A stretch of 20,064 bases of DNA. It comes from a virus. The stretch is taken from IMG/VR virus record IMGVR_UViG_3300042516_000920, positions 1 through 20,064 of that record. The stretch is one strand, 5' to 3'. Positions within the stretch are counted from its first letter, which is position 1, and each line of letters starts with the position of its first letter. Shown piece by piece: positions 8,690 to 20,064 of the stretch. The translations under genes and the position numbers were made by a program. The notes under the pieces are model-generated. The model was given only the letters and a program-made list of their open reading frames with translations. It was not told where the DNA came from and searched no databases.

Positions 8690-9594
8690 CAAAATTCACC
8701 AAATGGGTTACGTTCTGTGAAGTCAATAATACCGTCTGCTTCAGACTGTATCCTCAAGTTATCGTTTATATCCTCGAAAACATTATTTCCGACTTGAGTA
8801 TCTGTGTTTGTCGCAATAGCACTTCTATTTGCGTTACTGGTTTCACCACGTACTGTTCCTGAACCAAATGTTCCCTGCACACGAATGACAGTAATTGTTG
8901 AGTGTGGTGTGTAAGAGTAAACGACAGCTTGCGCATTAGCAGTTGCAACTGAACTGCCTTGGTATATGACTTCGCCAGGAACAAAAGAACCTGAACCAGC
9001 TGGATAAACAGTGGTGTTGGCCAACGCAATATCTGTTCTCTTATATTCTGCAAATGCTTGGGTGTCAATCTCTTCTACGCCTGTAGATATGATTTCTTCA
9101 CTGAACACAAATTGTTTCATCTTCAGTGCATACACGTATACGTTTCCGCCACGCCCTCTACCTAGTGTATAGAACATAGCTTGATCGTTTTCGTTCTCAA
9201 CGAACGTAATTTCAAAGAAGTTCTGCACCAGAGGAATATAGATCAGGTCGCCTTCTCGCGCTCTAGGTAAGTTTGCAGTCATTGCAAATCTACGTCTTGA
9301 AACTAATAGAGTTACCTCATCACGAATCTCAAGTCCAAATTTAGAAATGAAGTCGCCTTCGCCATCCATACCGGTGACGTTTTCCATGTACATTTCAATA
9401 GCATGTGCGGTGCGATATTGTTTCAGGGTGTCTTCACCATAAAGCATATCAACTTCATCACGGCTTGTGCGAGGAAGATAGTATACATCCATGCCATTGA
9501 TTTGCATGGCCTCAATCACCAAATCTTCTACAAGTAATTGCTCACTTGTTATTTGGTGCTGAGGAAAATTGTTGAAATAGAAATTCGTGGACAT
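8689..9594 (-). CDS. 14: neck protein (gp14)
   Basis: A 301-aa protein matching T4 gp14 (256 aa), which with gp13 completes the head neck and seals packaged DNA before the tail joins. Conserved segments are QLLVEDLVIEAMQINGMDVY followed by YLPR, the acidic MLYGEDTLKQY, KFGLEIRDEVTLLVSRRRF and REGDLIYIPLVQNFFEITFV. The short end NPFGEF corresponds to the SPFDND-type end of T4 gp14. Between about residues 195 and 280 an inserted Gly/Ser/Thr-rich beta module (PGEVIYQGSS through VRGETSNANRS) accounts for the extra length. The ATG at 9594 lies five bases after the gp13 stop. No strong Shine-Dalgarno is visible, so coupling to gp13 is likely. Confidence 0.93.
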   Translation of the reverse strand: MSTNFYFNNFPQHQITSEQLLVEDLVIEAMQINGMDVYYLPRTSRDEVDMLYGEDTLKQYRTAHAIEMYMENVTGMDGEGDFISKFGLEIRDEVTLLVSRRRFAMTANLPRAREGDLIYIPLVQNFFEITFVENENDQAMFYTLGRGRGGNVYVYALKMKQFVFSEEIISTGVEEIDTQAFAEYKRTDIALANTTVYPAGSGSFVPGEVIYQGSSVATANAQAVVYSYTPHSTITVIRVQGTFGSGTVRGETSNANRSAIATNTDTQVGNNVFEDINDNLRIQSEADGIIDFTERNPFGEF

Positions 9595-9599
9595 CTATT

Positions 9600-10553
9600 T
9601 TAGCCCATCATTATCTCGCCAGGAAGTACGTTTGTGCTTATCAAACCATCTTCTAATTCTTTCATCTCTTCAGCCGCCTCTTGCATTATTCTGACACCAT
9701 CAAGTGTAACACCACCGGGCATTTGAATACCTGCGAATTTACTGAGATTGCTTCCCCACTGATATTTGATCTTTGCTGTTGCGTATTGCTTCAGGAATCT
9801 ATCGTTCCATACGTCTGAGAAACCTGGGCGTGTCAGTGTGGCACCTGTTGTTGTAGATGCAAACTGCGGAGTCACGTTTAGTGATGCTGGTCCTGCAATC
9901 GAGACAATTTTCTTGAATTCACCATTGATGATAATTTCATCATCGACAGACAACTCACTATTGAAAGATGTGCCTGTTCCAATTACGGTGTTGGATGTGG
10001 CAGTAACGGATACTGTGCCTGTGGATATTCTGGAATCTGGTTCTATTCTGCGATAGCACTCAACGATGACCCAGCTTCCAACAGAAACATCTCTTGTCCA
10101 ATCAATATCAAGATACAATCTATTCATCTTCCTATTGAATCTGACTTGTGGTGTTCCTGAGAACAACAGATTCAATGTTCGGATGTGTTGCATCGTTATT
10201 TCATATGAAACATACGATACCGATGTGAAGTCATAAAGGTCATGCAATCTCAGTTGGTATCTCAAGTCAAACATGTTGACTGAGGAGTTTGACTGGTCAA
10301 ATGGTAAAATGCCAGTAACAAAATTGACTGCATCAGGACAGAATATGTATCTCCTGTCCATATCTTCCTGAGTGATTTGATATTTCAAATACATCTGTTC
10401 CATACCATCATAATGATAGTCATGGTAGAATGCCAATGCATCATCAACACGATCATCCAGCTGATCTTCATCTACGTTTATTTGAATGACCGGATGTCCA
10501 AGTCTGCGTAAGCAGTATTCTTTGAATTCTGATCTTGTTCTAGGAGTTGCCAT
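9600..10553 (-). CDS. 13: neck protein (gp13)
   Basis: A 317-aa protein close in length to T4 gp13 (309 aa). With gp14 it forms the connector between the portal and the tail. Typical segments are FKEYCLRRLGHPVIQINVDE followed by QLDDRVDDALAFYHDYHYDG near the N-terminus, VRFNRKMNRLYLDIDW, and the C-terminal WNDRFLKQYATAKIKYQWGS and KFAGIQMPGG. About residues 178-243 hold an inserted beta module (VSVTATSNTVIGTGTSFNSE, VDDEIIINGEF) of the kind found in many phage virion proteins. The ATG at 10553 has a modest GGA ribosome site, and a perfect TATAAATA lies 24 bases upstream. It is the first gene of the neck-terminase run. Confidence 0.94.
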   Translation of the reverse strand: MATPRTRSEFKEYCLRRLGHPVIQINVDEDQLDDRVDDALAFYHDYHYDGMEQMYLKYQITQEDMDRRYIFCPDAVNFVTGILPFDQSNSSVNMFDLRYQLRLHDLYDFTSVSYVSYEITMQHIRTLNLLFSGTPQVRFNRKMNRLYLDIDWTRDVSVGSWVIVECYRRIEPDSRISTGTVSVTATSNTVIGTGTSFNSELSVDDEIIINGEFKKIVSIAGPASLNVTPQFASTTTGATLTRPGFSDVWNDRFLKQYATAKIKYQWGSNLSKFAGIQMPGGVTLDGVRIMQEAAEEMKELEDGLISTNVLPGEIMMG

Positions 10554-11445: not shown

Positions 11446-12240
11446 TCACTTGATTCCCATAGACTTTCTGATCTTTGTAGCACTTATTGCATGTGTCGCG
11501 TCATCAAATACTTCCTGCTCAATCTTATATCCAACATCTCGCCCATAGGTAATGTTCACGATGTTAGGAACAACCTGAATTTCATATTGTCCTTGATATA
11601 GAGTGTCAAGATCGCGTTTAATATAGCTTTTGACTTGTTCAATGGCAAATGGATTTGATCCTTGCCAGCCTTGACAGTCTCGGATTTGTATGACAACCTG
11701 GCCAGTCTTGCTGATAGCTCTCTCAAACAAAGCTCTGTGACCTTGGTGCCATGGCTGCCATCTTCCTAGCATCTGAACAGTCTCTTTTTGCCAATCAAAT
11801 GTGGGTCTGCGTCTATTATCCAGAATATGAGCCGCAATAAACTCACCCCATTTTTCACCATGCTGTTCGGTAATCCTGAAGTCGTAAACTTCTGGTGGAG
11901 TGAAAATCTTATTGGTGTCTTCAAAGCGACCTTTATCAATGGTATCTACCCATACTGTCCAGTCTGCTTTGAAGTTATTTCGCATTTCCTGAAGAGGAGC
12001 AACGAAATCACAAATTACAAAATCCATGTCACCATATTGAGTCTCAGCAAGTTCTGCCATTCGTTTACTTTGGCGAATACGACCCTCATGACTAAAGTCC
12101 CAATCGTTGAACTTTTTTCGTACATCATCCGCATTCAACCAGCCAACACGTTTTCTATCAGCTTGTAAATGATCCAAAATGTGTTGAGCTAGATAAGTCT
12201 TCCCGGCACCTGGTAGACCCATAATAAGAATTTTCTGCAT
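11446..12240 (-). CDS. APS-kinase-like P-loop kinase fused to an HxGH nucleotidyltransferase
   Basis: A 264-aa two-domain protein. Residues 1 to ~145 resemble adenylylsulfate kinase: P-loop GLPGAGKT (8-15), the ADDVR motif (37-41, compare DGDxVR), then FSHEGRIRQSKRMAELA (49-65), like the APS-binding segment. APS kinase converts APS and ATP to PAPS. Residues ~155-264 form a nucleotidyltransferase with GRWQPWHQGH (159-168; HxGH) and the C-terminal ISATKIR (252-258; compare ISSTxIR), as in NMN or cytidylyl transferases. I use the ATG at 12240, preceded by GGAG at 12250-12247; an upstream in-frame ATG at 12321 lies inside the 56-aa gene. Two genes separate it from a sulfotransferase, which would use PAPS. 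The substrate of the second domain is unknown. The kinase call is fairly secure, its exact substrate less so. Confidence 0.8.
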   Translation of the reverse strand: MQKILIMGLPGAGKTYLAQHILDHLQADRKRVGWLNADDVRKKFNDWDFSHEGRIRQSKRMAELAETQYGDMDFVICDFVAPLQEMRNNFKADWTVWVDTIDKGRFEDTNKIFTPPEVYDFRITEQHGEKWGEFIAAHILDNRRRPTFDWQKETVQMLGRWQPWHQGHRALFERAISKTGQVVIQIRDCQGWQGSNPFAIEQVKSYIKRDLDTLYQGQYEIQVVPNIVNITYGRDVGYKIEQEVFDDATHAISATKIRKSMGIK

Positions 12241-12256
12241 AATATACTCCGTTAGA

Positions 12257-12427
12257 TTACTCTGCGGCTTGTTCTGTTTGTTCTGCTGGCTGTTCTGGCA
12301 CTTGTGGTTGAACTTGTTCATGGATCAAGCTGACCAATTGCGCTGCACCTGTTTTAACTGGTAGTTCACCCAATGCATAGATGATACCGTTGACTTGTTC
12401 TAATGATAGTTTCAATGTAATTTCCAT
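12257..12427 (-). CDS. small conserved phage protein, 56 aa
   Basis: A short gene starting at the ATG at 12427 and ending with TAA at 12259-12257. It has an AAGGAG ribosome site (12439-12434) at ideal spacing and lies one base after the stop of the 93-aa gene. The first ~38 residues (MEITLKLSLEQVNGIIYALG, then ELPVKTGAAQLVSLIHEQ) match a pattern I know from many small phage proteins, with the core ALGELPTKTG. The last ~18 residues are a Pro/Gln/Glu-rich tail (PQVPEQPAEQTEQAAE). The function is unknown. Small size, helical character and pairing with the 93-aa gene suggest a virion assembly or chaperone-like accessory protein, but that is only inference from context. Confidence 0.85.
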   Translation of the reverse strand: MEITLKLSLEQVNGIIYALGELPVKTGAAQLVSLIHEQVQPQVPEQPAEQTEQAAE

Positions 12428-12428
12428 T

Positions 12429-12710
12429 TTATTCTCCTTGTGTTATCCAAATGTTTTCGGCTAGTTTTGCTTCGCCTGTTGTAATAGCTGCTAGTAGATC
12501 CGTGATATCTTCTCCTGAATCAACAATTGCTTGATCAGAAACAACAATTTTCAGATGCGCAACGTTGCGTTCAATATTGCCTTTTCTTTCATTGTTTGCC
12601 TGTGATCCAGCAGCCAATTTTGCAATCTCATCACCAATAACCCACACACTGTCCCGTGCAGCTTTGATGGTTCCCTTGATATCGTCTAATGTTCTTACTC
12701 GTTCTTCCAT
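12429..12710 (-). CDS. small conserved phage protein, 93 aa, helical
   Basis: A 93-aa soluble and almost fully helical protein (VRTLDDIKGTIKAARDSVWV, then ERKGNIERNVAHLKIVVSD and SGEDITDLLAAITTGEAKL). Heptad-like spacing of hydrophobic residues suggests a helical bundle or coiled coil. The ATG at 12710 has AAGGAG at good spacing. The stop is followed after one base by the 56-aa gene, so the two probably work or are regulated together. It has no catalytic motif, signal peptide or membrane segment. Similar short proteins occur among the accessory genes of other T4-like phages, but I know no assigned function. Confidence 0.8.
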   Translation of the reverse strand: MEERVRTLDDIKGTIKAARDSVWVIGDEIAKLAAGSQANNERKGNIERNVAHLKIVVSDQAIVDSGEDITDLLAAITTGEAKLAENIWITQGE

Positions 12711-12722
12711 GATAGAATCTCC

Positions 12723-13640
12723 TTAAATAAATCTTGTGTCTTCTTGGTCTATTACTTCGCCAAAGAAGCTAGTCTTCTTTTCTGGCTTATCATCAACCGT
12801 TTCGTTTGTTAATGGCACATCATCAAGTTCTCGCCAAAACTCCGCACCAACAACTGCATCCAAAATAACTTTTGGTAATACATCTTCGGGCATTTGAGCA
12901 GTTGACTTCAATTCTTTGCGGACCTCGTGCATGTCAGTGAATCCATAAATTTTAGCATCATCTTCTTGATGCTGGTTTATCAGGTTCTTAAAATCATGAT
13001 TGTATTCTGATTCTCCTAGAAACTTATATATCTGTCTCATAGTTTCTTTTGGATTACTTACAAGATCCTTGTACTCAACAAAGTGAATACTTGTTCTATA
13101 TCCCTCAGAAAGAGCTTTCTTTAGTCCATCAAACGATTGACCAAGAATGCCTGGACCAGCAATAGCGCGGCAACGATTTTCATCAGTCAATGGAATGCCT
13201 TGCTGCACAAGCGATTGGTCGATGAAGTTTAACCTGTCGTTGACGATGTGTGGGTTGCGTTTAATCATTGAGATGAATGATGCTAGAATCTCAGCTACAT
13301 CACGCACCGGATAGATGATCTTTGGATGTTCAATACCAAAGTATCCTTGAATATAATCCATTCTGTTTACCCAACTGCGATTCTTTTCAAATACCACTGG
13401 CTTGTCTGTATCTGCATAGTATTGATCAATGACTGATGTAACTAGATTCTTACCAAATTCCATCTTTGGATATGCAAGAAACAGTTCATCTTGGCTCAGT
13501 GATTGTTCCAAAGTTAACATGGTAGAAACCACCGGCGAACTAGGACCAGAGTAGAATCTTGGATTTTGGTTTAGGATAGCCGATAGCATTGTGCTGCCGC
13601 TACGTGGCAAACCTGCCATAAAATAGTATTTTTTCTTCAT
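12723..13640 (-). CDS. PAPS-dependent sulfotransferase
   Basis: A 305-aa protein of the sulfotransferase fold. The 5'-phosphosulfate loop is at residues 10-18 (GLPRSGSTM). The 3'-phosphate site is visible as YPVRDVAEILAS with Arg113 and Ser121, the eight-residue spacing seen in well-studied sulfotransferases. FEKNRSW (84-90) lies between them. Such enzymes move a sulfuryl group from PAPS to a hydroxyl or amine of a sugar, protein or small molecule. The acceptor cannot be read from the sequence. The ATG at 13640 has AAGGA upstream and lies nine bases after the stop of the GT9-like gene, so both are transcribed from the late promoter at 14579. The C-terminal ~25 residues are charged and may be flexible. 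A PAPS-making candidate lies two genes downstream. Confidence 0.9.
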   Translation of the reverse strand: MKKKYYFMAGLPRSGSTMLSAILNQNPRFYSGPSSPVVSTMLTLEQSLSQDELFLAYPKMEFGKNLVTSVIDQYYADTDKPVVFEKNRSWVNRMDYIQGYFGIEHPKIIYPVRDVAEILASFISMIKRNPHIVNDRLNFIDQSLVQQGIPLTDENRCRAIAGPGILGQSFDGLKKALSEGYRTSIHFVEYKDLVSNPKETMRQIYKFLGESEYNHDFKNLINQHQEDDAKIYGFTDMHEVRKELKSTAQMPEDVLPKVILDAVVGAEFWRELDDVPLTNETVDDKPEKKTSFFGEVIDQEDTRFI

Positions 13641-13649
13641 AATAAATCC

Positions 13650-14549
13650 TTACTGTTTGTCCACTGATGCAATGATATCATCAATATTGAAAAGCTCCTG
13701 ATCGTCCGTGAATGGATATTCAACCTCGTTGCCATTGAAATCAAAGTCAAACAGATAACTTCCCGGCAACTTGAAATCGTATGGAATCTTTGTCGTTATA
13801 TTAGTATGTATGTCATATCCAAACACAGTCGGGCTGGTGCCATTCCACAAAACCGTTGATGGTTTGTTTGTTGCAGCGGCCGCGTGTTGAAGTGAGGAAT
13901 CAATAAGAATACGCTTATCGCTGTGCAATAAGATACTGAAAAATTCCATCAATGATAGAGTTTGTTGCTGACTTGCAAAGATGTGATTTGCGCCCTTGAG
14001 CTTGATTGAATTTATCTTTGTTATCTGATAGATTGTGTAATCTTTTTTGTAATGATCTACCAAATCTTGAGCTAGTTTCTCGGGCATGTCGCGGGTCCAT
14101 GCGTATGGCTTTGCATCAGTTGTCATCATTCCACCATTGGTATGAATGACCATGATTGGCTTGCTGCCCTTTACCCAAAACTTTCTAGATAAATCGTATT
14201 GCAACTTGTTGAACTTAATCACAGGTTGTTCATTGTTATACTCCAATCCATATAACTTACACCAGTTCTGAATTAGTGGTAATTTTTTATGAATGTGATC
14301 TGTAGTGTAATACGGCTCATGGTGAAAGATGATTGAATCTTTTCCTTGAATGTAATTCTGGTAAAAGTATGATGTTGTCCCAATGGTGTATACACGATCA
14401 ACAAAACTCAAATTGTTGAAAATTTCTGCGTATGCACAGACAACAATAAGTTTGCGGTCTGGATGGTTGTTCTTGATGGCTTGTGCAACTGCTGTTGCTG
14501 CGACATGTTTACCAATGCCACCCTGAACGTGGAAAATACTATATTTCAT
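13650..14549 (-). CDS. GT9/heptosyltransferase-like glycosyltransferase (GT-B fold)
   Basis: A 299-aa protein with the outline of the ADP-heptose:LPS heptosyltransferase (GT9) family. The N-terminal Rossmann-like start is HVQGGIGKHVAATAVAQAIK (7-26), followed by DRKLIVVCAY. The C-terminal nucleotide-sugar site is LIDSSLQHAAAATNKPSTVL (215-234), then WNGTSP. GT9 enzymes add heptose or related sugars to lipopolysaccharide cores. Here the donor and acceptor are unknown, and one possibility is a sugar on the host surface or on a phage protein. The ATG at 14549 has a weak GAGA ribosome site and a perfect TATAAATA 29 bases upstream. It is the first gene of a unit that continues into the sulfotransferase, so expression late in infection is likely. 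Confidence 0.82.
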   Translation of the reverse strand: MKYSIFHVQGGIGKHVAATAVAQAIKNNHPDRKLIVVCAYAEIFNNLSFVDRVYTIGTTSYFYQNYIQGKDSIIFHHEPYYTTDHIHKKLPLIQNWCKLYGLEYNNEQPVIKFNKLQYDLSRKFWVKGSKPIMVIHTNGGMMTTDAKPYAWTRDMPEKLAQDLVDHYKKDYTIYQITKINSIKLKGANHIFASQQQTLSLMEFFSILLHSDKRILIDSSLQHAAAATNKPSTVLWNGTSPTVFGYDIHTNITTKIPYDFKLPGSYLFDFDFNGNEVEYPFTDDQELFNIDDIIASVDKQ

Positions 14550-14578: not shown

Positions 14579-14586
14579 TATTTATA
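14579..14586 (-). promoter_or_regulatory. late promoter for the GT9-sulfotransferase unit, overlapping a stop codon
   Basis: The minus strand reads TATAAATA, a perfect match, 29 bases before the GT9-like ATG. The TAA inside it (14584-14582) is the stop codon of the upstream GT2-methyltransferase gene. Confidence 0.8.
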
Positions 14587-15850
14587 CTCGTTCCAGAATA
14601 GTAAAACCATTGTTGTTCGTTTTGTGTGTCTTAAATTTCCAGTGTGGATTTTGTATCATAAACTCAATGATTGCTGTCATGAGTCCTTTTCTGTCATTGC
14701 CAACTTCACCCGTTAATCCAAATGTGTATGTATCATGGAAAGCTAGATATTTCTTGGCTTTGTTGCCATGTAATTTTAACTCTTTTGATAGTTGACTGTA
14801 AGTATGTAGTGTGTCAATAAACAGTAAGTCTGTTTCAGCAATCTCAATATTCAGTACATCTGCTTTTATATATTGGGCATTTTTGCCTTCCATTCTAGCC
14901 ATTTCAAATAATGTAGCAACTTCTTTGTCTAAGGAGATATCATAAGAAATTAGTTTGGTGTTGGTGTTCAGAAATGCCCGTGTGCTTACGCCAGTTCTAA
15001 CACCCATTTCCACTACAGTTTCACATTGTTGGGCTAACTCATATAGCAGATGGACGTTCTCGTTGATATCGCTAAGTGTTTTTGTTGCTCGTTCATATTC
15101 TAATTGAAATGTGTTCTTCACAGCTTGTTCTTTACTAATCATCTGGTATGGTATATCCCAATTCTTTCCATCTTCAAAGTGACCAAAGCTAATGAAGTTC
15201 TTTGAATCTAATTGAATTCGTTTAGATATCTCACTATTTGGATCATTAAAGTGCTTCAATGTTTCTGATATTTTGCCTTTGATTTTGTTTGAATTTATAG
15301 CATACACATTCTTAGCTCGTTGTGCAAGATAGTCATCGCCATACCAAACCTGATACAAACTAGGAATCTTGTTATATGATGCTCTTGTCATAAACATACA
15401 GATACCAAATGCCCATGCTTGACCACCAATTGGTTTTGTTTTGTTGTAGTTGAGATTAACAATTTCCTCTTTGGTATTGATGTGATCGTCTATCTTATAG
15501 TTATTCTGATATCCTCGGAGATTGACCCCTATCAAATCACCATGTTTCAAATCAAAGTTGAAAACCATATCAAAAACATCATGTGACACTTTGATATCAT
15601 CGTTGATGATTGCAATGATATCTGATGTTGTGCGTTTGTGACCTTCGTTCCATGCAGGATTTACATAGATGTTTCTACCGTAACTAATCAACTCAACCTT
15701 GTTGTGTCTCAATATAGTTGCGTTAGGTCTTTTGCTCTTGTTGTTATCAACAATGATAACCTTTTTGACATTTGGATGTGAAACATAAGATTCAATACAT
15801 GATTCTATACCCTGTGCCATCCACATTGTGGGAATAATGATATCAATCAT
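14582..15850 (-). CDS. GT2 glycosyltransferase fused to a SAM-dependent methyltransferase
   Basis: A 422-aa fusion. Residues 1 to ~215 form a GT-A glycosyltransferase of family-2 type: MIDIIIPTMW start, KVIIVDNN, the metal-binding acidic motif INDD (82-85), and VWYGDDYLAQRA (168-179) in the position of the catalytic acid. Residues ~265-422 look like a class I methyltransferase: SAM motif I VVEMGVRTGVSTRAFL (279-294), then YD at 303-304, DLLFIDTLHTY (341-351), and AFHDTYTFG (370-378). A sugar could be transferred and then O-methylated by the same chain. The methyltransferase half resembles a group common in phages near surface-glycan genes. The start overlaps the upstream gene as ATGA. Substrates are unknown. 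The fold calls rest on motifs and I regard them as good. Confidence 0.82.
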   Translation of the reverse strand: MIDIIIPTMWMAQGIESCIESYVSHPNVKKVIIVDNNKSKRPNATILRHNKVELISYGRNIYVNPAWNEGHKRTTSDIIAIINDDIKVSHDVFDMVFNFDLKHGDLIGVNLRGYQNNYKIDDHINTKEEIVNLNYNKTKPIGGQAWAFGICMFMTRASYNKIPSLYQVWYGDDYLAQRAKNVYAINSNKIKGKISETLKHFNDPNSEISKRIQLDSKNFISFGHFEDGKNWDIPYQMISKEQAVKNTFQLEYERATKTLSDINENVHLLYELAQQCETVVEMGVRTGVSTRAFLNTNTKLISYDISLDKEVATLFEMARMEGKNAQYIKADVLNIEIAETDLLFIDTLHTYSQLSKELKLHGNKAKKYLAFHDTYTFGLTGEVGNDRKGLMTAIIEFMIQNPHWKFKTHKTNNNGFTILERV

Positions 15851-16491
15851 AATTTATTGGCTTGCTTGAAATCACCTTTGTACATCTTGTTTCCAATGTG
15901 GGAAACTGTATGGTGTGGATTGCACCAGATTGTATAACCTAGTTCGGTAATCTTGTTGGACAAAGTGATATCTTCACCAACAAAGTCACCATTTTCGTAG
16001 GTGTATTCACAGATGTTTTTCAGCTTCTTATTTCTGAATACCAACTCAGTGTTTGAATCCCATAGGTCAACAATTACTTTGCGAGATAGCTTTAGAAATC
16101 CTGTGCCACTCTTTTGCACATTAATATAACCATCAGTTTCGTCAGTGACTGAATTCTTTGGAATCCATATGTTGAATGATATATTTTTATCACCTTTGTT
16201 AACCACAGGAATAGTGATCACATCTTTTTCTGATTGAATTATATCTATCAGTGCCTGAGCATCCCAATATTCATCATCGTCAATGAATACCATAATTTCA
16301 TAATCTTCTAGATAAGCAAGCGCAAAAAGCTCATTCCGAGCCATGGGCAGGATACTTTCATTCGCAAGGAACACACACTTAATATCAATGTTATTCTTGA
16401 TACCTAGTTTAGTGGATTCACACAGACTATGTACAAAATATGCATCAACCTTCTGGTCAAGGCATGGGGTAGCAATCAAAACTTTTTTCAT
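15847..16491 (-). CDS. GT-A fold glycosyltransferase
   Basis: A 214-aa protein starting MKKVLIATPCLDQKVDAYFV. The sequence around residues 67-74 (MVFIDDDE) is the nucleotide-sugar and metal site of GT-A enzymes. FVGEDITLSNKITELGYTIW and the C-terminal TVSHIG supply the probable catalytic acid and a metal-binding His. I choose the ATG at 16491, which begins the core strand and has a GAG ribosome site. An earlier TTG at 16539 would add 16 hydrophobic residues and run through a terminator hairpin. Its stop overlaps the start of the GT2-methyltransferase gene by four bases, so they are co-translated. Small GT-A proteins like this occur in large DNA phages; donor and acceptor are unknown. No clear promoter is seen in the short gap upstream. 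Confidence 0.78.
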   Translation of the reverse strand: MKKVLIATPCLDQKVDAYFVHSLCESTKLGIKNNIDIKCVFLANESILPMARNELFALAYLEDYEIMVFIDDDEYWDAQALIDIIQSEKDVITIPVVNKGDKNISFNIWIPKNSVTDETDGYINVQKSGTGFLKLSRKVIVDLWDSNTELVFRNKKLKNICEYTYENGDFVGEDITLSNKITELGYTIWCNPHHTVSHIGNKMYKGDFKQANKL

Positions 16492-16498
16492 AAAAAAC

Positions 16499-16536
16499 TC
16501 AAAATAAGTGAACAGACATAGTATATATGCCTGTTC
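16499..16536 (-). terminator. probable Rho-independent terminator after the fibre gene
   Basis: On the minus strand an 11-bp stem (16536-16526 with 16520-16510; one G-T pair) has a 5-base loop and is followed by the T-rich ACTTATTTTGA. It lies 14 bases after the fibre stop. The T-run is not immediate, so the call is moderate. Confidence 0.62.
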
Positions 16537-16550
16537 CAATCACCTGAAAA

Positions 16551-19500
16551 TTATTTTGCTTCCAGTGATGATAATCTAGCCTTCAACTCATCAACTTCCC
16601 TTGATAGTTCGTTCACAGCATTGACTAAAATTGGTATTAAGTGATCCGTTGTTAGTTGTAGCTTTTCAGAATCATCAACAGATACTACAACAGGATGATC
16701 TCCTTCAGCTTCAAGGAAGTTCTGAGCAGTGAAACCATACCTGCGTTTACCCTCTATGTCAGTGATGCAACCAGTTTCTCTATCTTTGAATGCAAATTCA
16801 ACAGGTTCAATGTTCTGCAAGAATCCGCGACCATGCGGCACACTACCAAAGATAAACTTATCACGACAATCAGAAACCGTAGTCCAACCAATCTGAATCT
16901 GGGCACATGTGTGAGTTGCATTACCCATAACAATGCGGTTAGATTCTGTTGTAAGATTTACCAAACCACCCGGAGTAAACCCGGTGGTACCAGCTCTAAT
17001 ACCAAACAATAAGTTGTTGCAACCTGTTGTGACTGCTACGCCGGTGCCGAAGCCTAAGAATAAGTTATTACATCCAAATGTGTTGTTGAAACCAGCATAT
17101 GATCCAATGAATATGTTGCAGTTACCTGTTGTGTTTTTCTGACCTGTGCAATTACCGGAAAAGAAATTATTATTACCGAATGTGTTATAACGACCGGCTT
17201 GGTTGCCGATAAAGTTGTTGTGGTTGCCTGTGGTGTTAAAGCGACCAGCATAAAAACCGAAGAAGTTGTTGTAACTACCTGTTGTGTTGGGACGACCCGC
17301 CTGATTACCCATAAAGGTGTTATGATTGCCTGTTGTATTGCTGCGCCCAGCATAAAAACCAAAAAAGTTGTTACTGCTGCCTGTTGTAGTGTAACGACCA
17401 GCATCTCGTCCAAAAAAGTTGTTGTGACATGCGGTTGAGTTAGTACATCCAGTATATAACCCAACAAAGAAGTTATGACAGCCAAATGTGTTGAGGCGCC
17501 CAGAGGATTGACCGATAAATGTGTTGTAACAACCTGTTGTGTTGAAGCATCCAGCTCGTAGGCCAATAAAGGTGTTGCTGCATCCAAATGTGTTGCAACT
17601 ACCAGCATTGCAACCAATAAATGTATTGAAGCCGCCGGTTGTGTTTGAGCGACCAGCATAAGCACCAAAGAAGTTGTTATTGCAGCCTGTTGTATTGTAA
17701 CGACCAGCATCTCGTCCAAAAATGTTGTTGTTGCACCCGGTTGTGGTATTAAAACCAGCACTTCGGCCAATGAATGTATTGAAGCAACTGGTTGTGTTAC
17801 AATACCCGGCACAACGACCAGCAAAGAAGTTGTCACAACCGAATGTGTTACGCTGCCCAGCATTAAACCCAATAAATGTGTTGAAGCTACCTGTTGTGTT
17901 GTAACGACCAGCGTTAGTGCCAAAGAAGTTATTATAACAACCAAATGTGTTAAATTGGCCAGCACTAGAGCCAATGAAGTTGTTGAAACTTCCTGTGGTA
18001 TTGCAGAGACCAACAGAGGTGCCCATGAAGTTGTTACTGTTACCCTCCGTGTTCTTGCGACCAGCGCCATTACCAAAGAAGTTGTTGGCGCTGCCAGTTG
18101 TGTTGCAGCATCCAGCATAATAACCAAAGAAGTTGTTGCAGCTACCTGTTGTGCTGTATCGACCCGCACGAAAGCCGAAGAAATTATTATATTGACCAGT
18201 TGTGTTGCTGCACCCAGTATAATTACCAAAAAAGTTGTTGTCTCTGCCTGTTGTGTTTGAGCGACCAGTTTGATTACCAAAGAATGTGTTGTTGCTGCCA
18301 GTGGTGTTGCAGTAACCAGCACATTGACCAGCAAAGAAATTGTTGCTGCCAAATGTGTTGCAACGCCCAGCATAATAACCAATGAATGTGTTGAAGCTAC
18401 CTGTTGTGTTATTGTAACCAGCACAACGACCAGCAAAGAAGTTGTCACATCCGAATGTGTTACTGCGACCAGCATAAGAACCAATGAAGGTGTTGAAGCT
18501 ACCAGTTGTGTTATTGCGACCAGCACATGCTCCAAAGAAGTTGTTGTTACTACCAGTAGTATTAAACCTTCCGCTTGCAAAACCAAAGAAGTTGTTGCAA
18601 TTGCCTGTGGTGTTGTTTCCGCCAGCATAACTACCAATAAAATTGTTGTTGGTGCCGGTAGTGTTATATCGACCAGCACTAGATCCAACAAAGATGTTAT
18701 TACAACCTATTGTATTACAGTAGCCAGCTTGTCGACCAAAGAAGTTGTTGTTGAAGCCAGTAGTGTTTCTCCATCCGGCACATTGACCAAAGAAGTTGTT
18801 GTAGCTGCCAGTGGTGTTACAAGAACCAGCAAAGACACCAAAGAAGGTGTTGTTGGTGCCAGTGGTGTTATTTAAGCCAGCATTTGATCCAATGAATGTG
18901 TTGAAGCTGCCGGTTGTGTTACAATATCCTCCACAGTGACCAGCAAAGAAGTTATTGCATCCAAATGTGTTACTGCGCCCAGCATTTAATCCAATGAATG
19001 TGTTGAAGCTGCCAGTCGTGTTGAGGCAACCAGTATTGTAACCAGCGAAGAAGTTGTTGCAGCCTGTTGAGTTGCGTTCCCCAGCAGAGCGACCAAAGAA
19101 GTTGTTGTAATTACCTGTTGTGGTACAAAGTCCGGCAAATGCTCCAATGAAGTTGTTGGCACGACTAATGGTGCTCTGGGAGCCTGCACGGATTCCAGCA
19201 AAAAAGTTGTATTTGCCAGTCGTGTTGCATAGTCCGGCGCACCGACCAATGAATGTGTTGTAGCTGCCCGCGCCGAATGTGCCCCCCACGTTACTAAAAC
19301 CCGCACATAAGCCAATGAATGTGTTGTAGCTGCCACCGCCGTATGCGCCTCCTATGTTGTTATACCCCGCACAACGCCCAGCAAAGAAGTTGTTGCATCC
19401 AAATGTGTTACTGAAGCCAGCGCCGTTACCAATAAATGTGTTGAAGTTACCTGTCGTGTTGCAAAAGCCAGCACAACGACCAGCAAAGAAGTTGTCGCAT

Positions 19501-20064
19501 CCGAATGTGTTACTGCGCCCAGCATTTGATCCAATGAAGGTGTTGAAGCTACCTGTTGTGTTGCACAAACCAGCACAGAAACCAGCGAAGAAGTTATAGG
19601 TGCCAGTACCGCCTGTGCCACCAATGCAACTTACAATGTTTGTCGTGTTACAAACATTGAATGCACTTGGTGCGCTAAATGGTGAACCATTGATACTTAA
19701 ACCAGTAGCATCAACTTTTAATCTTTCACATGTGCCTGCGGCTAATATAACTGTATCACATAAGCCAGCAGAGCCAACTATCGAACCGATGATTAAGTTA
19801 TTAGAACCAGTTGTCACTGCACATCCTGCATTGCATCCAAAGAATGTGTTGTTGCTGCCGGTTGTGTTTAACCGACCAGCACAACGACCAGCAAAGAAGT
19901 TGTCGCCTCCAAATGTGTTGCAATAACCTGCTCTTGTTCCAATGAATGTGTTATAACTGCCTGTTGTGTTGAGTATACCAGCACATCTGCCAAAGAAGTT
20001 GTTGTAGCCACCTGTTGTGTTGTAAGCTCCGGCACATTGACCTATAAAGTTGTTGTGGTTAGCT
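16551..20064 (-). CDS. giant repeat tail-fibre-like protein with C-terminal S74 chaperone domain, 5' end outside window
   Basis: The frame is open from the window edge to the stop at 16553-16551, at least 1,170 residues. A GTG at 19817 lies inside a repeat and is not the start. Nearly the whole chain is ~20-residue repeats of the pattern NTTGSxNTFIGxxAGxx, alternating with NTFGCxNFFAGRCAGxC, which suggests a beta-solenoid as in trimeric adhesins. Cys is unusually frequent (roughly one in ten in the alternate units). The last 107 residues are an endosialidase-type S74 intramolecular chaperone: SDCRDK (16874-16857) near the self-cleavage site, RRYGFTAQNFLEA, and a terminal coiled coil VNELSREVDELKARLSSLEA. 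This domain trimerises fibres and is then cut off. A receptor-binding fibre is likely. The adjacent genes encode sugar-modifying enzymes. Confidence 0.88.
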   Translation of the reverse strand, partial: ANHNNFIGQCAGAYNTTGGYNNFFGRCAGILNTTGSYNTFIGTRAGYCNTFGGDNFFAGRCAGRLNTTGSNNTFFGCNAGCAVTTGSNNLIIGSIVGSAGLCDTVILAAGTCERLKVDATGLSINGSPFSAPSAFNVCNTTNIVSCIGGTGGTGTYNFFAGFCAGLCNTTGSFNTFIGSNAGRSNTFGCDNFFAGRCAGFCNTTGNFNTFIGNGAGFSNTFGCNNFFAGRCAGYNNIGGAYGGGSYNTFIGLCAGFSNVGGTFGAGSYNTFIGRCAGLCNTTGKYNFFAGIRAGSQSTISRANNFIGAFAGLCTTTGNYNNFFGRSAGERNSTGCNNFFAGYNTGCLNTTGSFNTFIGLNAGRSNTFGCNNFFAGHCGGYCNTTGSFNTFIGSNAGLNNTTGTNNTFFGVFAGSCNTTGSYNNFFGQCAGWRNTTGFNNNFFGRQAGYCNTIGCNNIFVGSSAGRYNTTGTNNNFIGSYAGGNNTTGNCNNFFGFASGRFNTTGSNNNFFGACAGRNNTTGSFNTFIGSYAGRSNTFGCDNFFAGRCAGYNNTTGSFNTFIGYYAGRCNTFGSNNFFAGQCAGYCNTTGSNNTFFGNQTGRSNTTGRDNNFFGNYTGCSNTTGQYNNFFGFRAGRYSTTGSCNNFFGYYAGCCNTTGSANNFFGNGAGRKNTEGNSNNFMGTSVGLCNTTGSFNNFIGSSAGQFNTFGCYNNFFGTNAGRYNTTGSFNTFIGFNAGQRNTFGCDNFFAGRCAGYCNTTSCFNTFIGRSAGFNTTTGCNNNIFGRDAGRYNTTGCNNNFFGAYAGRSNTTGGFNTFIGCNAGSCNTFGCSNTFIGLRAGCFNTTGCYNTFIGQSSGRLNTFGCHNFFVGLYTGCTNSTACHNNFFGRDAGRYTTTGSSNNFFGFYAGRSNTTGNHNTFMGNQAGRPNTTGSYNNFFGFYAGRFNTTGNHNNFIGNQAGRYNTFGNNNFFSGNCTGQKNTTGNCNIFIGSYAGFNNTFGCNNLFLGFGTGVAVTTGCNNLLFGIRAGTTGFTPGGLVNLTTESNRIVMGNATHTCAQIQIGWTTVSDCRDKFIFGSVPHGRGFLQNIEPVEFAFKDRETGCITDIEGKRRYGFTAQNFLEAEGDHPVVVSVDDSEKLQLTTDHLIPILVNAVNELSREVDELKARLSSLEAK
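16554..16874 (-). other. S74 (endosialidase-type) intramolecular chaperone domain
   Basis: This codes for the 107 C-terminal residues of the fibre, starting at the Ser of SDCRDK. The family hallmarks are the SDxRxK start, the central IEPVEFAFKD and YGFTAQ segments, and a C-terminal coiled coil. In known members this part folds the trimer and is released by self-cleavage at the Ser-Asp region. Confidence 0.85.
16985..20064 (-). repeat. array of ~60-bp coding repeats in the fibre gene
   Basis: Roughly fifty units of about 57-60 bases encode the Gly/Asn-rich solenoid repeats. Two unit types alternate to form a ~120-base super-repeat. Blocks 18421-18503 and 19471-19553 differ at only five of 83 positions. 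The array is interrupted by slightly longer units near 19260-19370. Copy number could change by recombination. Confidence 0.93.

Follow-up and report, generated by a model that had tools for sequence, protein, structure and literature searches.

The window analysed here is the whole of IMG/VR virus record IMGVR_UViG_3300042516_000920, a single contig of 20,064 bases whose main genes all lie on the minus strand. Upstream of a gene for a gp13-like neck protein, a cargo block encodes a tail-fibre-like giant repeat protein, three glycosyltransferase (GT)-type proteins, a sulfotransferase (ST), two small proteins of 93 and 56 aa, a kinase-nucleotidyltransferase fusion (KN), and a 263-aa protein (p263). 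From the fibre gene to p263 every gene is on the minus strand and is separated from its neighbour by a gap of 1–32 bp or a 4-bp overlap, a spacing that is consistent with one transcription unit. The original prediction proposed that ST uses the sulfate donor 3'-phosphoadenosine 5'-phosphosulfate (PAPS) and that the gene at 12240–11446 encodes a kinase making it from adenosine 5'-phosphosulfate (APS). Both open reading frames (ORFs) were found at the coordinates it gave, and their main features are as follows.

12723..13640, minus strand: ST, 305 aa (PF13469 and PF00685 matches; PAPS-contact residues)
11446..12240, minus strand: KN kinase-nucleotidyltransferase, 264 aa, probable PAPS synthase (AlphaFold2 model; profile search against the PDB)
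11809..12240, minus strand: KN residues 1–144, P-loop domain of APS-kinase fold with GLPGAGKT, NADDVR, and DFSHEGR (VIA Z score; PF01583)
11449..11808, minus strand: KN residues 145–264, NadM/CoaD-like nucleotidyltransferase (NTase) domain, proposed ATP sulfurylase (AlphaFold2 model; structural matches; invariant residues)

ST passed both Pfam cut-offs, with 61.2 bits against a cut-off of 27 for Sulfotransfer_3 (PF13469, E 2.2e-16) and an E-value of 4.9e-14 for Sulfotransfer_1 (PF00685). The motifs named in the original prediction were confirmed: the 5'-phosphosulfate-binding loop is GLPRSGSTM at residues 10–18, and the 3'-phosphate-binding residues are R113 and S121 in VRDVAEILAS. R13–T17, R113, and S121 were invariant among 15 aligned phage STs, the others being 28–79% identical to the window ST. 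The closest PDB sequence match was tyrosylprotein sulfotransferase 9wp1 (E 3.7e-5), and proteins of cyanophages S-SKS1 and S-SRM01 were 35% and 31% identical, respectively. From its curated score and intact PAPS contacts, ST is predicted to be a PAPS-dependent sulfotransferase.

The KN start was placed at the ATG at 12240, giving 264 aa; a longer ORF start (12321) overlaps the upstream gene. KN matched PF01583 (APS_kinase) with E 4e-12 and 46.9 bits, where the cut-off is 21.1, so the APS-kinase-like domain of the original prediction held. In a profile search against the PDB, residues 6–88 matched APS kinase 2yvu (2.8e-13) and the bifunctional ATP sulfurylase (SAT)/APS kinase 2gks (1.8e-12). 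The AlphaFold2 model of the whole protein had a mean confidence (pLDDT) of 90.7. Its kinase half gave VIA Z scores of 15.7–18.6 with 30 APS kinase or PAPS synthase entries, the next family being gluconate kinase at 14.9. The best of these values came from 4fxp (Z 18.6, root-mean-square deviation (rmsd) 2.3 over 144 residues). D38, R41, and R54, which we take to be the Asp/Arg substrate residues of APS kinases, were at least 90% conserved in an alignment with haloarchaeal members at apsK level. The kinase halves of haloarchaeal KN proteins, fused to the same NTase domain, passed the curated apsK cut-off of 138.7 bits with 156–160 bits. On sequence and model, the KN kinase half likely has APS kinase activity.

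The original prediction missed the C-terminal half. Residues 151–216 matched NMN adenylyltransferases 2qjt (2e-8) and 1f9a (1.8e-7) in the PDB profile search, and a model of the NTase domain alone had a pLDDT of 87.3. Against structures of pantetheine-phosphate adenylyltransferase (PPAT) and NMN adenylyltransferase (NMNAT), this domain gave Z scores of 9.8–10.9; the structural matches listed were all PPAT and NMNAT, and Sat was not among them, an absence that proves nothing. The HxGH and SxTxxR motifs and the superfamily fold of NadM are present, and the motifs in KN read GRWQPWHQGH, IRD, NPF, YGRDVGY, and ISATKIR. GR-QP-H-GH, R187, N196-P197, YGR-VGY, and SAT-I-R were invariant in 35 aligned NTases. 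The scores fell below the curated NadM levels for both PRK01153 (27.6 vs 127 bits) and TIGR01527 (25.0 vs 181 bits). As the motifs do not vary among phages, SAR11/SAR86, and haloarchaea, the NTase domain is under selection. From sequence and model, we assign residues ~145–264 to the NMN/pantetheine-phosphate adenylyltransferase superfamily, as a domain that looks catalytic. The view that KN is an APS kinase alone was ruled out, because its C-terminal ~120 residues form a second conserved domain. With this half found, the claim moves from an APS kinase to a probable complete PAPS synthase.

At least 594 IMG/VR stretches encode KN relatives, the best 80 of these being 82–100% identical, and cultured phages of Stenotrophomonas, Xanthomonas, and Clavibacter encode relatives that are 35–38% identical. 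A Pfam-supported ST was found within 4 kb of KN in 41 of 80 loci (29 classical, 12 second class). ST can lie on either side of KN, downstream in L022 and upstream in L039 (L numbers denote compared loci), and the two genes overlap by 4 bp in L039, L066, and L078–L081. In the Casjensviridae phages Suzuki and Clavibacter 33, three consecutive genes encode ST (PF17784, above cut-off), NADAR, and KN. The NADAR-domain gene (PF08719, about 1e-25) between ST and KN was observed at L082:5559–6002 and L084:5559–6002. Two neighbour proteins were left out of the 41 loci: 'ST3' had moderate profile support (64% against the ST alignment), and 'ST4' (CLPRTGSQL), which adjoins KN in five loci, had little (12.6% probability).

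A whole-record search found PF13469 in 19 of 43 KN-positive records, and KN-positive L188 brings this to 20/44. Among 25 records around the TerL (large terminase) lineage of the window, ST was found in 0/24 without KN and in the one with KN. The difference between 20/44 KN-positive and 0/24 KN-negative records carrying ST gave a Fisher p of 4e-5, a test that is limited by kinship and fragment length. The cassette of three GT genes, ST, p93 (the 93-aa protein), and KN was seen again in L252–L254, and without detected p93 in L009/L010. In L252 the cassette proteins were 51–84% identical to those of the window, against 38–46% for gp13–gp15 and 58% for TerL, which indicates that the cassette moves as a unit. 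The original prediction had hinged on both genes occurring together in related phages; they do so in related and unrelated phages and also in cells.

Cellular KN relatives were found in SAR11, SAR86, and other marine Proteobacteria, and on haloarchaeal and rhizobial plasmids. In haloarchaeal plasmid loci ST lies directly upstream of KN in 5/5. In four of these five (L087, L263, L264, L265) KN is followed by a gene of the YqcI/YcgG family, which in L088 lies near KN on the other strand; this gene may hint at what the sulfated product is. On a Rhodoferax plasmid, in a prophage-like region that also has a tail-fibre-assembly gene, ST overlaps the KN kinase by 4 bp and the NTase is truncated. ST was also observed within 4 kb of KN in a Rhodospirillaceae genome and in a SAR11 polysaccharide locus. 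In Microvirga lotononidis, KN lies near ST (PF13469), NodP/CysD (PF01507), and a NodQ/CysN that has a DUF2061 domain and lacks an APS kinase domain; from our reading of their sequences, the surrounding ORFs are presumably nodC-, nodI-, and nodJ-like. The Microvirga NTase motifs are degenerate (HESH, GLDLGY, SPTAVQ), as expected if NodPQ supplies APS.

In phage contig L047, KN is also overlapped at its 3' end by a DUF2061 gene (8728–8985). The position of this gene, together with the DUF2061 fused to NodQ/CysN in Microvirga (L085), hints at a sulfate-linked role. In marine Proteobacteria the kinase and NTase are mostly encoded by two adjacent, often overlapping genes. In SAR11 loci L099 (7995–11127), L126, L127, L160, and L124, an insertion of 2–4 kb separates the two, and that in L099 encodes an autotransporter-domain protein (PF03797). 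By our reading of the sequences, we take most SAR11 KN genes to lie beside C1/betaine-type genes.

The source of APS was examined in 32 cell genomes, of which 3 had a Sat match, 1 a CysD match, and 24 a PF13469 match. Of 18 ST-bearing genomes examined further, 14 gave no Sat or CysD matches; these belong to marine Proteobacteria (SAR11, SAR86, and others). One of them is a complete SAR86 chromosome (CP097973.1), and the rest were assembled from single cells or metagenomes, so that absences from them weigh less. In these 14 genomes with ST and KN, the KN kinase was the only PF01583 protein above cut-off, and the PF01583 coordinates agreed with the KN loci in those genomes compared. KN is thus the only candidate found there for both steps, if the STs use PAPS. 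In 117 SAR11-family genomes, NTase and ST occurred together in 33, NTase only in 28, ST only in 16, and neither in 40 (p 0.008), a contingency that is weak because the genomes are incomplete.

Taken together, the locus is rather probably a phage sulfation cassette in which KN serves as a compact bifunctional PAPS synthase feeding the presumably co-transcribed ST. This assessment draws on sequence and models, and on the domain identities, motifs, operon layout, and ST–KN linkage observed across phages, bacteria, and archaea. In the proposed pathway, the C-terminal NTase domain would form APS by linking sulfate to the AMP moiety of ATP, and the N-terminal APS-kinase domain would phosphorylate the 3'-OH of APS, yielding PAPS. 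ST would then move the sulfate from PAPS to an acceptor, most likely a sugar set by the adjacent glycosyltransferases on the virion fibre or a surface glycan. The donor made by KN is probably PAPS, given that the haloarchaeal kinase half passes the apsK cut-off and that 14 genomes showed no other APS source. The putative ATP-sulfurylase activity of the C-terminal domain is argued mainly from these 14 genomes. We would give an even chance to the wider proposal that the NTase represents a third ATP sulfurylase class on a small NadM/CoaD-like fold, distinct from Sat (PF01747) and CysD/CysN. Beside or fused to an APS kinase, it would then form a minimal PAPS synthase used by phages, haloarchaea, and SAR11/SAR86 for sulfation, not cysteine synthesis. 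Gene co-occurrence and the APS-kinase fold support the original idea that donor synthesis and use sit in one module, with the kinase half likely acting on APS.

Several observations weigh against a PAPS synthase feeding ST. The NTase is closest in sequence to NMN adenylyltransferase, not to ATP sulfurylase, and PF01747 (ATP sulfurylase) was not among the 25 Pfam matches listed. The window KN scored 36.5 bits against the curated apsK equivalog (TIGR00455), below its cut-off. The canonical lid segment (KARxGxIxxFTG) is present in haloarchaeal KN, where it reads KARKGEIEGFTG, and is missing from the phage, SAR11, and Microvirga proteins; the phage-type kinase has Q57 where haloarchaeal KN has a substrate-side Asn, a residue that the SAR11 and Microvirga proteins lack as well. 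The linkage also has gaps. In about a dozen phage loci KN lies in a FolE-QueD-QueE group, and no ST was detected less than 4 kb away. We take the gene order there, from the sequences, to be FolE, TagD-like cytidylyltransferase, KN, QueD, and QueE (7-deazaguanine pathway). Such groups surround KN in L004, L006, L008, L017, L027, L029, L034, L042, L044, L051, and L054, mostly with no ST within 4 kb. Conversely, the STs of L255–L259, 56–59% identical to the window ST, have no KN within 8 kb. In SAR11, KN is split in two genes that mostly do not adjoin ST, and 16 of 49 ST-bearing SAR11-family genomes had no detected NTase. Sat was expected in these 16 genomes and found in 0/16 (5/117 overall), so this prediction failed. 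Many of the compared contigs are also fragmentary and mutually related.

An alternative that we consider unlikely, though the strongest of the rivals, is that the KN kinase makes PAPS from APS of a host ATP sulfurylase, while the NTase has a different role, whether in some other activation or in regulation, or does not catalyse at all. APS production is common among proteobacterial hosts. Relatives in Rhodoferax and Rhizobium sp. 007 keep the kinase half alone beside ST, and the NTase of Microvirga is degenerate beside NodPQ. This explanation does not account for the NTase catalytic motifs being invariant across phages, SAR11/SAR86, and haloarchaea, or for the 14 genomes with ST and KN that showed no other APS source.

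It is improbable that KN makes another 3'-phosphorylated nucleotide donor, in which the group transferred by the ST-fold protein is not sulfate or the nucleotide is not ATP. Such chemistry has a model in Campylobacter, whose phosphoramidate pathway uses an APS-kinase-like enzyme to form 3'-phospho-CDP-phosphoramidate. The short lid and altered substrate-side residue of the phage kinase would suit this, as would the other small-molecule genes beside KN in some phages and the NTase sequence, which resembles NadM more closely than ATP sulfurylase. The APS kinase domain of haloarchaeal KN reaches the curated level, though, KN is linked to NodP/NodQ in Microvirga, and the PAPS contacts of ST are intact, all of which speak against this reading.

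A role in NAD salvage, with KN as a NadR-like nucleoside kinase and NMN adenylyltransferase and ST merely nearby, appears very doubtful: the NTase sequence is closest to NadM and a NADAR gene adjoins KN in Casjensviridae, but the kinase half matches APS kinases well ahead of other families and the ST linkage recurs in phages, bacteria, and archaea. Chance shuffling in a cargo hot spot by the tail-fibre genes can practically be set aside, for although phage cargo regions are mosaic and the compared contigs related, different ST families lie on either side of KN with 4-bp overlaps, the linkage extends to haloarchaea and bacteria, and the L252 cassette proteins are more conserved than the flanking gp13–gp15.

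The proposed PAPS synthase was compared with known systems. Like KN, the metazoan PAPS synthases (PAPSS1/2) are single chains with the APS kinase domain first, serve sulfotransferases, and have a second domain of adenylyl-transfer type from the HxGH nucleotidyltransferase superfamily. Foldseek/VIA alignments to 1x6v and 1xnj covered all of KN, but not as one rigid body (rmsd 17–21 Å). The second domain of KN is NadM/CoaD-like and ~120 aa long, whereas PAPSS1/2 have a large PF01747 ATP sulfurylase; KN has 264 aa against 630 for the PAPSS1 chain in 1x6v. Lacking PF01747, KN does not belong to the classical PAPS synthase family. In rhizobia, NodPQ/CysDN-CysC with NodH likewise encode donor synthesis and a sulfotransferase together, and the Microvirga cluster holds a KN copy, but the NodPQ ATP sulfurylase is a CysD/CysN pair unrelated to the NTase of KN. 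NadM-type NMN adenylyltransferase shares the fold and the GRxQPxHxGH, NPF, and SxTxxR motifs with the NTase; KN differs in the extra invariant R187, the YGRxVGY motif, the APS kinase fusion, and the ST linkage.

Viral cysC auxiliary genes have been reported in viromes (PMC12713726, PMC12766990, PMC8066274), where KN would receive the same annotation. They are listed under assimilatory sulfate reduction and not validated (PMC12713726). KN differs from viral cysC as listed in that it combines kinase and NTase in one protein and is linked to sulfotransferases; these features indicate a role in sulfation, not in cysteine synthesis. Sulfation may thus be the actual function of many viral 'cysC' genes now catalogued under sulfate reduction. 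PMC10580990 describes what phage sulfotransferases do as unclear. The Sulfotransfer_3 genes of cyanophages S-SKS1 and S-SRM01 and of OM43 phages belong to the same family as the window ST, and the accessible parts of the sources do not point out a donor-making partner for them, unlike in the window cassette. No description of an APS-kinase/NMNAT-like fusion or a phage PAPS module was found in the literature covered, which was partial and mostly excluded subscription papers.

If a large class of viral cysC is KN, its role would be to provide PAPS for sulfotransferases that modify virion or host-surface molecules, and phage sulfotransferases would have a source for their donor and a pathway open to testing. 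If a NadM-like fold does act as a sulfurylase, it would represent a new class of enzyme and would allow SAR11/SAR86 cells without Sat or CysDN to make sulfated compounds.

The remaining features of the cargo block are listed below.

12257..12427, minus strand: 56-aa protein between ST and KN (no family match; 51% over 35 aa in L252)
12429..12710, minus strand: p93, 93 aa, between ST and KN (59–69% identical in L252–L254; similar gene in L188)
13650..14549, minus strand: GT9-like (heptosyltransferase-like) protein (PF01075 E 0.018, below cut-off; 82–85% identical in cassette relatives)
14582..15850, minus strand: GT2 glycosyltransferase-methyltransferase fusion (PF00535 7.1e-9, PF13578 1.6e-5)
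15847..16539, minus strand: putative glycosyltransferase (PHROG 1574, unknown function, 3.2e-17; no Pfam match; 73–79% identical in cassette relatives)
16551..19817, minus strand: giant repeat protein, tail-fibre-like, 26 NTTG repeats (11-bp gap to cassette; no Pfam match)

The three glycosyltransferases and methyltransferase of the original prediction were borne out in part: Pfam supports GT2 and the methyltransferase, while the GT9-like match is below cut-off and the third protein has no Pfam match. Its words 'late' and 'glycan' were deduced from gene position. The giant repeat protein (1088 aa) has NTTG-type repeats, 58 Cys, and 44 N-x-S/T sequons, and it is a possible acceptor or carrier of the sulfate. 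In L252 and L253 the cassette is preceded by NTTG-rich homologues, and in L254 and L009/L010 by other virion-like genes, so the NTTG fibre does not always accompany it. Since GT genes and a fibre gene precede ST, decoration of the virion with a sulfated glycan is plausible.

The window also encodes a large terminase (PF03237) and the gp13-like neck protein (PHROG 211), together with genes that we take, from reading their sequences, to encode portal, tube, and sheath. By this gene content, the window is assigned to the structural region of a T4-like myovirus, a virus of bacteria. Within the gp13-like protein (9600–10553), residues ~176–240 resemble a stretch in phage tail/fibre PHROGs 34307, 2712, and 1980 and perhaps form an inserted domain.

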